From Phycisphaerales bacterium (GTDB taxonomy: Bacteria > Planctomycetota > Phycisphaerae > Phycisphaerales > SM1A02): a stretch of 64,000 nt of DNA. Of this stretch, positions 34,031 to 35,621 are shown piece after piece. The number at the start of each line of letters is the position of its first letter. The first letter of the stretch is position 1. The translations under genes and the position numbers were made by a program. The notes under the pieces are model-generated. The model worked only from the letters and a program-made list of their open reading frames with translations, was not told the DNA's origin and made no database searches. The stretch covers positions 1-64,000 of the forward strand of contig JASMKH010000009.1 in assembly GCA_030749435.1 (NCBI GenBank), given 5' to 3'.

Positions 34031-34208
34031 CAGCCGCACGAACAGCCGCACGAAAGCTGGACACCCACCAATCCTCCCTGACGCCGCTGCCGAAGCCAGC
34101 AAGCACGAAAGCTGGACACCCACCAATCCTCCCTGACGCCGCTGCCGAAGCCAGCGGTCAATCTTGGACACCCACCGATCAGCCCCGGGTCAATCCTGGA
34201 CACCCACC
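34031..34208. repeat. Left flank array: 4 copies of GGACACCCACC, two inside a ~55-bp direct repeat
   Basis: GGACACCCACC at 34059-34069, 34114-34124, 34166-34176, 34198-34208; 55-bp unit at 34048-34102 repeated at 34103-34155. Confidence 0.95.
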
Positions 34209-34408
34209 GTATCGGAGCGGCAGCAGTGCGAATCACGTGCAATTCAGCGGTGTGCGTGGTTCGATCTGGGAAGGGGAACGAATTCGGCCGGTCCAATGCA
34301 GCCAAGTCGCCGCTTTGACGGGGATGGCGGCAGCATCGTGTCACACCGATAGCGTTCTGCCTATCTGGATTTGTGTTCTTGGACGTGCCGCACTAGCGAC
34401 AGACGCAT

Positions 34409-35347
34409 CTAGCCCGACCAATTGCGGAGCGGACTGAGCACCCAGGACCCATTGCGGCGCCTCGCTTCACGGCGAAGCGCCTCGGCTGCGCCGATCGCCG
34501 TGCCAGAAACCGAATCGAGACCACGCACAAGGGCGTCCTTCCAACTCGCCCTGGTCAACCCGAGCCGCTCCAGTATCGAGGGAAGGCTGCGAGGGCTCGC
34601 GTGCTTGCCCGGCGTGACGGCCCGCGCCCACGCATCGACATGCTGGATATAGCCTCGATCCGTGAAACCCGGTATCGGCTGAAGGGCGATACGCGTCTTG
34701 GGCCTCCGGCCAGCAAGCGTCCTCGCTCGCTGTCCGATGGACCCGTGCTCTGTCTGCTCGATGCGTTCGACGATCCCGGCCCGCACAGCATTCAAGTCAA
34801 TGTACGTCGCCACGGCGGCGATCGCGGCTTCGTCAAGAACCGCGATACATCCAAAGCGACCTTCCCAGAAGTGACCGGTACAGTCATCCTCAGCGTTGGC
34901 ACGCCTGGCGATGGGCTCCTTGAGTTTGGCCATAAACCAGCTGACGCTTGAGAGACGCTTTCGGAGGACAGCGATGCGACCATCCTTCGCAAGAATCTCG
35001 TCAATCTCCTCCTCCGTCGGTTCGGAATCAATCGGAATACCGCGACGGCGTCTACGCCAGTTGCACGGGCAGATTCGCAGATACCGATCCGCGACCTCGC
35101 GATCGGTCCATCCCTTCACAATGTCAGGCCGAATGGCCAGCAGGATGTGCAGGTGATTGGAGAGGATCTCCCATGCGTAGACGTCGAGAGCCATGATCGA
35201 GACGAGCAACTCGAGCTGTCGCTGCAGCCAGTCACGACGATGATCGAAGCCATCGCCGCACAGGTGGGCTCGCCGGACACAGCGGCTGATGGTGTGGTAC
35301 ATGCCGGGTCGCTCTGGATCAACAACGGCCTTGCGCGGTGTCGGCAC
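34409..35347 (-). mobile_element. REP-associated tyrosine transposase-like (RAYT, IS200/Y1_Tnp superfamily)
   Basis: GMYHTISRCVRRAHLCGDGFDHRRDWL, HUH-type motif NHLHILL, FMAKLKEPIARRANAEDDCTGHFWEGRFGCIAVLDEAAIAAVATYIDLNAVRAGIVE; GTG start preceded by AGGAGG. Confidence 0.88.
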
Positions 35348-35390
35348 GGCGAGTCCTCCTGTGTGCTGATCCGCACCCTACGCGGTGATT

Positions 35391-35621
35391 CGGAGAACAA
35401 GCCAACGACTGCGGAAAGGCAGGTTGGTGGGTGTCCGATCTTGCGGCTGCCCGGAACGGTTGGTGGGTGTCCAGCGTTGCCGGAGAACAAGCCAACGACT
35501 GCGGAAAGGCAGGTTGGTGGGTGTCCGGTCTTGCGGCTGCCCGGAACGGTTGGTGGGTGTCCAGCGTTGCCGCAGCGTTGCCGTTGGTGGGTGTCCAGCG
35601 TTGCCCAGTTGGTGGGTGTCC
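35391..35621. repeat. Right flank array: 6 copies of GGTGGGTGTCC, four inside a duplicated 90-bp unit
   Basis: GGTGGGTGTCC at 35426-35436, 35462-35472, 35516-35526, 35552-35562, 35586-35596, 35611-35621; 90-bp unit 35391-35480 repeated at 35481-35570 nearly perfectly. Confidence 0.96.

Follow-up and report, generated by a model that had tools for sequence, protein, structure and literature searches.

Outward-facing DNA tags around a RAYT-like transposase gene of a Phycisphaerales bacterium: a candidate REPtron-like unit of TnpA-Y1 subclass 2.3

The 64,000-nucleotide stretch analyzed here (contig JASMKH010000009.1 of a Phycisphaerales bacterium; below, the window) contains a Y1/HUH transposase gene flanked by ten perfect copies of the 11-mer GGTGGGTGTCC (the tag), four on one side and six on the other, arranged as inverted arrays. 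We consider it likely (probability, roughly 0.78) that this locus is a REPtron-like unit, in which a transposase of TnpA-Y1 subclass 2.3, a repetitive extragenic palindrome (REP)-associated tyrosine transposase (RAYT), is accompanied by cognate DNA tags that also form REPIN-like mini-units. The tag appears to be linear, reading 5'-TGGACACCCACCAA-3' here and G[AC]CA[CG][CG]CA[CT] across the lineage, and sequence comparisons suggest that each end of the mobile unit carries it, inverted and reading outward. The mobile unit is probably an outward-facing pair of tags, with the gene being optional. Two forms of the unit were seen: a gene-bearing form of ~1.2 to 1.4 kb and a miniature, REPIN-like form with two inverted tags typically 32 to 50 nt apart.

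Tag arrays and transposase in the window

A sequence-only reading of this DNA had described ten perfect copies in inverted arrays of four and six, and all ten were confirmed. Downstream of the gene, exact copies lie on the minus strand at 34198 to 34208 (the innermost, 200 bp past the stop codon), 34166 to 34176, 34114 to 34124, and 34059 to 34069 (copies 2, 3, and 4 counted from the gene). Upstream, they lie on the plus strand at 35426 to 35436 (the innermost, 78 bp ahead of the start codon), 35462 to 35472, 35516 to 35526, 35552 to 35562, 35586 to 35596, and 35611 to 35621 (copies 2 to 6). In the orientation of the gene, the upstream copies read GGACACCCACC and the downstream copies GGTGGGTGTCC, and therefore all GGTGGGTGTCC copies point outward from the gene. 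As had also been noted, no exact copy occurs in the window outside the two arrays, and a scan for exact and one-mismatch sites found just two further sites there, each with one mismatch. With up to one mismatch allowed, the window holds 12 matches versus 2.07 expected from shuffling, and 0 of 100 shuffles gave as many as 12.

The innermost upstream tag (35426 to 35436) is probably the left end of the gene-bearing unit, as indicated by its exact match, its spacing, and the point at which homology to a second gene copy on contig C15 begins (see below). The innermost downstream tag (34198 to 34208) is the probable right end, on the basis of its exact match and the spacing at other copies. Between the stop codon and this right tag lies a non-coding spacer (34209 to 34408) for which strong folds were predicted.

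The upstream array also includes a 95-bp tag-carrying segment present as two tandem copies (35391 to 35485 and 35481 to 35575) that are 97.9% identical, showing that this array has grown locally through duplication. A repeated segment was seen in the downstream array as well, by direct reading. Growth by insertion into or beside existing tags may be a further possible route. The tandem duplication is what would be expected if the arrays were local tandem-repeat expansions with no functional link to the enzyme, but arrays elsewhere have in common the tag and a few adjacent letters and not the spacer, and the tag stands on both sides of the gene at fixed polarity and distance, so we regard this explanation as highly improbable.

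The transposase open reading frame (34409 to 35347, minus strand, GTG start) encodes a 312-amino-acid protein that matches Pfam Y1_Tnp (25.9 bits; cut-off, 23). It contains the HUH motif as NHLH (residues 64 to 67), W161-E162 within WEGRF, Y182 within YIDLNAVRAG, and a C-terminal extension, with about 94 residues separating HUH from W. Residues H65, H67, W161, and Y182 are invariant across 52 homologues, and Y182 is the predicted catalytic tyrosine. The protein thus combines the HUH motif and the catalytic tyrosine on a Y1 fold that characterize the Y1/HUH superfamily. In its structure model (predicted local distance difference test score, 86), the top solved fold was 4er8, Escherichia coli TnpA-REP bound to its own REP (E value, 2.3e-5), followed by the ISDra2 and IS608 transposases (TnpA). 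The score against the NCBIfam model NF047646 (REP-associated tyrosine transposase) was 39.7 bits, below the curated threshold of 80, and by that model's score the protein is a relative of the family rather than a member. Its description as RAYT-like is supported. A PDB sequence search with the protein gave only weak matches to unrelated integrases, and searches of Rfam and PHROGs gave no match. The closest homologue from a named genome is in a Phycisphaerae metagenome-assembled genome (MAG; 53% identity), and many others, about 325 amino acids long and with the motif YVDLNP, come from Shewanella, Marinomonas, Alteromonas, and Vibrio.

Tag copies and gene-free tag pairs in the genome

The source assembly (G000) comprises 1.80 Mb in 58 contigs and is 84% complete. 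It contains 101 exact copies of GGTGGGTGTCC, whereas the reversed 11-mer used as a control was found 0 times, bearing out the genome-wide enrichment that the sequence-only reading had proposed to look for. These copies fall in about 20 places, mostly as arrays. In gene-context statistics drawn from stretches of the genome, 5% of tag positions appeared coding-like by a codon-usage score, compared with 75% of positions picked at random from those stretches; the tags are intergenic. Arrays at separate sites have only the tag and a few adjacent letters in common, and their spacers differ. Tag arrays on contigs C6, C23, C29, C30, and C37 are located close to the end of a contig or on very small contigs, and a contig of 906 bp consists of the transposase alone; assembly gaps are therefore likely, and the copy numbers are lower bounds. 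Short direct repeats (AGCATTGACG) resembling slippage products follow the tags in L047 (1200 to 1420); runs of this kind are also present in L045 and L042.

Three further transposase copies were identified in the genome (85%, 73%, and 66% protein identity to the window copy). Both of those with complete flanks have outward arrays on both sides, as at the window copy, with an upstream tag-to-start distance of 77 to 83 bp. The right tag lies 203, 205, and 209 bp past the last codon at three copies; the distance to it (spacer, 200 to 210 bp) is conserved across copies, and the intervening sequence is divergent. DNA homology between the window copy (contig C58) and the C15 copy starts precisely at the innermost upstream tag. 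Most of the differences between these two genes are silent (nonsynonymous divergence [dN], 0.094; synonymous divergence [dS], 1.03; dN/dS, about 0.09), which shows that the protein has been under selective constraint.

The order of tags within clusters was counted in 20 stretches of the source genome and 20 stretches of congeners. Adjoining exact tags on opposite strands were in minus-then-plus order 11 times and in plus-then-minus order once, in line with the paired inverted spacing suggested earlier. When one mismatch was allowed, plus-then-minus neighbours occurred solely between consecutive units of tandem runs. The gene-free outward pairs, commonly at the 32- to 50-nt distance given above, can form stems of 11 to 14 bp as single strands, with about -15 to -20 kcal/mol under DNA parameters. 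No hairpin fixed at a single tag and its neighbours was found, the folding rank being about 0.4 on both tag sides. The proposal that the units lack a simple hairpin held for hairpins at a fixed position; elsewhere, beyond what the sequence-only reading could see, tags of opposite polarities pair into long hairpins. A hairpin in every unit was also considered and rejected, as the 3' side of the tag shows no excess over the 5' side. On contig C55 (L053, 3390 to 3820), inverted tag pairs are repeated in tandem at ~110 bp per unit with a mixed tag, GGACACCCATCAAC on the left and GTTGGTGGGTGTCC on the right.

A REPIN is a pair of inverted units, with a short, variable spacer between them, that forms a hairpin and is dispersed as a whole (PMC8049555). 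The tag pairs share all of these features: they face outward, have a short spacer, can form a hairpin, and are dispersed as units. In another host genome, G452, two 47-bp tag pairs are nearly identical, and their flanks are unrelated past about 8 nt on either side. A further host genome, G454, has three pairs with AAAATCGA-GGACACCCA...GGGTGTCC in common, and these remain alike for about ten more letters before diverging. The occurrence of tag pairs as dispersed, near-identical copies points to REPIN-like behavior. Inverted pairs with 10 to 40 nt between the tags were present in 6 of the 11 genomes tested, and the reversed pattern had no match in those six.

Tags and element ends in other lineages

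Homologous loci were compared in a sample of 80 (Gammaproteobacteria, Planctomycetota, Verrucomicrobiota, and others), 70 of which were usable for an unbiased word count, in which every 8-mer present upstream and, as its reverse complement, downstream was counted with no motif preselected. The top inverted 8-mer was GACACCCA, found at 17 of the 70 loci, versus 3 in direct orientation, and GACAGGCA and close variants came next. The core GACA[CG][CG]CA was found 35 times in the expected polarity and 0 times in the opposite one within 100 bp upstream of the genes, and 67 versus 3 times between 200 and 400 bp downstream, with a background of about 0.13 per kb far upstream. The tag core stands about 35-fold above background, reads outward, and keeps a fixed distance from the gene at either end. 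Right-hand tags are frequently GGCCACCCA, and the consensus was accordingly widened to G[AC]CA[CG][CG]CA. Left and right ends agree in the two variable letters at 24 of 42 loci, versus a mean of 10.7 in shuffled data, and 0 of 10,000 shuffles reached this agreement. Paralogues in the window's own family are flanked by inverted arrays of CGGACACGCA, GGACACACACTC, GACAGGACAGGCA, GGACAGGCACA, CGGCCATGCACTC, and CACGCACTCGC.

Genome-wide, CGGACACGCAC is abundant in G027, G029, and G019 (counts of 32, 48, and 25 among the three) and has 4 to 6 copies in each of five others, including the source genome. GGACACCCAY was in clear excess over its control in five genomes hosting homologues (232/23, 88/3, 154/21, 81/13, and 37/14), borderline in one (39 versus 19), and without excess in six. 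The 232 copies belong to the genome of locus L181; this record and that of L165 are titled as Klebsiella pneumoniae MAGs and carry subclass 2.3 elements, and the titles look like mislabelled bins. A phylum-wide search for inverted pairs of GACACCCA gave no signal beyond the source genome: 12 of 398 genomes had such pairs, with only 1 to 2 in each, a scatter of the kind expected by chance.

The high copy number and intergenic location of the 11-mer would also fit a host signal (for DNA uptake, a recombination hot-spot, segregation, or a terminator) that lies beside a transposase gene by chance. However, the copies are clustered in arrays rather than spread, homologous genes in other phyla are flanked by related tags of like polarity and spacing, and tag variants accompany the transposase lineage, leaving this explanation with hardly any plausibility.

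The ends of whole elements could be traced in several pairs of loci. L155 and L188 share about 1,370 bp at 89% identity, bounded by AGGACAGCCATAAT (left) and ATGGGTGGCCTGTTAAT (right), and are unrelated outside. In Shewanella, Alteromonas, and Vibrio pairs, homology likewise stops at the left-side tag, and the surroundings are unrelated. Shewanella decolorationis has a complete element of which Shewanella xiamenensis (L233, 1971 to 2260) has only the initial 190 bp; near the break in the latter, another subclass 2.3 element, with the tag GGGGACAGCCAT, begins, and the right border was not found.

Elements that end at tags in Gammaproteobacteria are also what an ordinary IS200/IS605-like insertion sequence (IS) with short terminal inverted repeats would leave, the arrays and solo tags then being decayed remnants with no dedicated mini-element. 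The truncated copy in G002, with its tag 81 nt ahead of the start (below), fits that scenario too, and the likeness extends to the Y1 transposase fold (2xm3 and 2vhg) and, in some lineages, to whole units in unrelated flanks. Nevertheless, the copies within one genome are of low identity (the 66% to 85% given above, whereas a mean of 99.4% has been reported for IS200 proper), the source genome holds 101 tags versus 4 transposase genes, no fixed hairpin was found at single tags in it, the short inverted pairs are dispersed as units that are nearly identical, and old copies compared with each other give a dN/dS of about 0.09. An ordinary IS is thus an unlikely, but the most serious, alternative.

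Several observations weigh against the interpretation of the locus as a REPtron-like unit. The tag variant tracks the protein tree weakly (28 changes versus 32.6 in shuffled data; 4 of 1,000 shuffles), and some homologues have no recognisable tag. The homologous loci are related to one another and are not independent samples, so the counts above overstate independence. No clean empty site was found; in Shewanella, the corresponding locus of a sister species is rearranged and holds a second element, and at the site of the window element, eight congeners conserve purC, each without the downstream neighbour in that place. Moreover, tags occur in G036 (21 tags) and G003 (28 tags), in which no full transposase gene was found. 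Abundance of tags in relatives lacking a homologue had been named beforehand as grounds for abandoning the proposal, and these two genomes partly fit that description; loss of the gene or assembly gaps is the likely cause. The congener G002 retains a truncated copy (L102; contig C11, 5175 to 5355), in which a tag 81 nt before the start is followed by about 33 transposase codons and then by unrelated sequence, consistent with transposase loss.

Probable placement in subclass 2.3 and relation to known systems

By its sequence features, the window protein appears to belong with TnpA-Y1 subclass 2.3 and not with the GTAG-REP groups. As in this subclass (PMC6006769; ~325 amino acids), it has a matching length, an insertion between HUH and W, WE, a YVDLNP-type tyrosine motif, and a C-terminal extension, several divergent copies occur per genome, and homologues from Alteromonadales and related groups align with it over nearly its full length. 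It differs in having NHLH instead of NHYH and YIDLNA, with A for P, instead of YVDLNP; the middle letter of HUH varies (L, T, V, Y, S, and M) in relatives from orders where subclass 2.3 prevails. No identifiable REP-like DNA was reported for subclass 2.3 (Quentin et al. 2018, PMC6006769), whereas candidate cognate tags were found here.

In the GTAG REPtron/REPIN systems (TnpA-REP groups 2 and 3), the enzyme likewise has the 4er8 HUH fold, inverted repeats flank the gene, and inverted-repeat doublets form hairpins and disperse. Here, in contrast, the unit is a linear tag of 10 to 14 nt that contains no GTAG and has neither the GTAG/GTGG tetranucleotide foot nor the hairpin per unit of those systems. 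A precedent is provided by TIRYTs/TIRtrons, RAYT-like genes with flanking inverted repeats of the motif GGGGWSAS (Di Nocera et al. 2013, PMC3733652). There, too, inverted repeats rather than hairpin REPs stand beside the gene, and the repeats can occur singly, in dimers, or in clusters. Twenty of the 26 inverted-repeat-flanked TIRYTs belong to subclass 2.1 and the other six to 2.2 and 2.5; none belong to 2.3, unlike the element described here, in which the tag is also longer (GGACACCCA...) and gene-free tag pairs disperse. Only the last six positions of GGGGWSAS match the tag (GGACAC). Since GGGGWSAS ends in GGACAC/GGACAG and subclass 2.3 is nested within 2.1, the TIRYT repeats and the subclass 2.3 tags are probably homologous. 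The earlier suggestion of an undescribed system therefore stands in that the motif differs from GTAG but not in full, as the tag resembles that of TIRYTs and is thus precedented. The accompanying suggestion of a divergent RAYT with cognate repeats of a different motif is supported by the genome-wide, intergenic, polarised, and transposase-linked nature of the repeats and by the lineage-specific tags on homologues.

At the sequence level, the linkage of tag and gene, the polarity and lineage specificity of the tags, the element ends at tags, and the dispersed mini-copies have been demonstrated. We infer that the enzyme binds, cleaves, and moves the tag units: it would bind a single-stranded unit at its tag ends, its HUH/Y182 center would, by analogy with the family, cut this unit, and the unit would be pasted at another site, after which arrays could enlarge via local tandem duplication or repeated insertion. 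A broader proposal, that the whole of subclass 2.3 reads a linear tag of ~10 nt via its inserted and C-terminal domains, instead of a hairpin with a tetranucleotide foot, while two inverted tags supply the hairpin required for single-strand transposition, is more tentative, and we would put it at somewhat below even odds. If true, linear-tag reading would be a distinct recognition mode of HUH transposases, and the coevolution of enzyme and tag would span phyla.

The tags offer a candidate DNA partner for subclass 2.3, an enzyme branch reported without one, and would extend REPIN-like populations to lineages without GTAG REPs. Binding, cleavage, and coevolution could be tested in culturable hosts (Shewanella, Marinomonas, and Alteromonas), and the natural series of tag variants (CC, GG, GC, TC, and CA) may serve for mapping the residues of the enzyme that recognize the tag.
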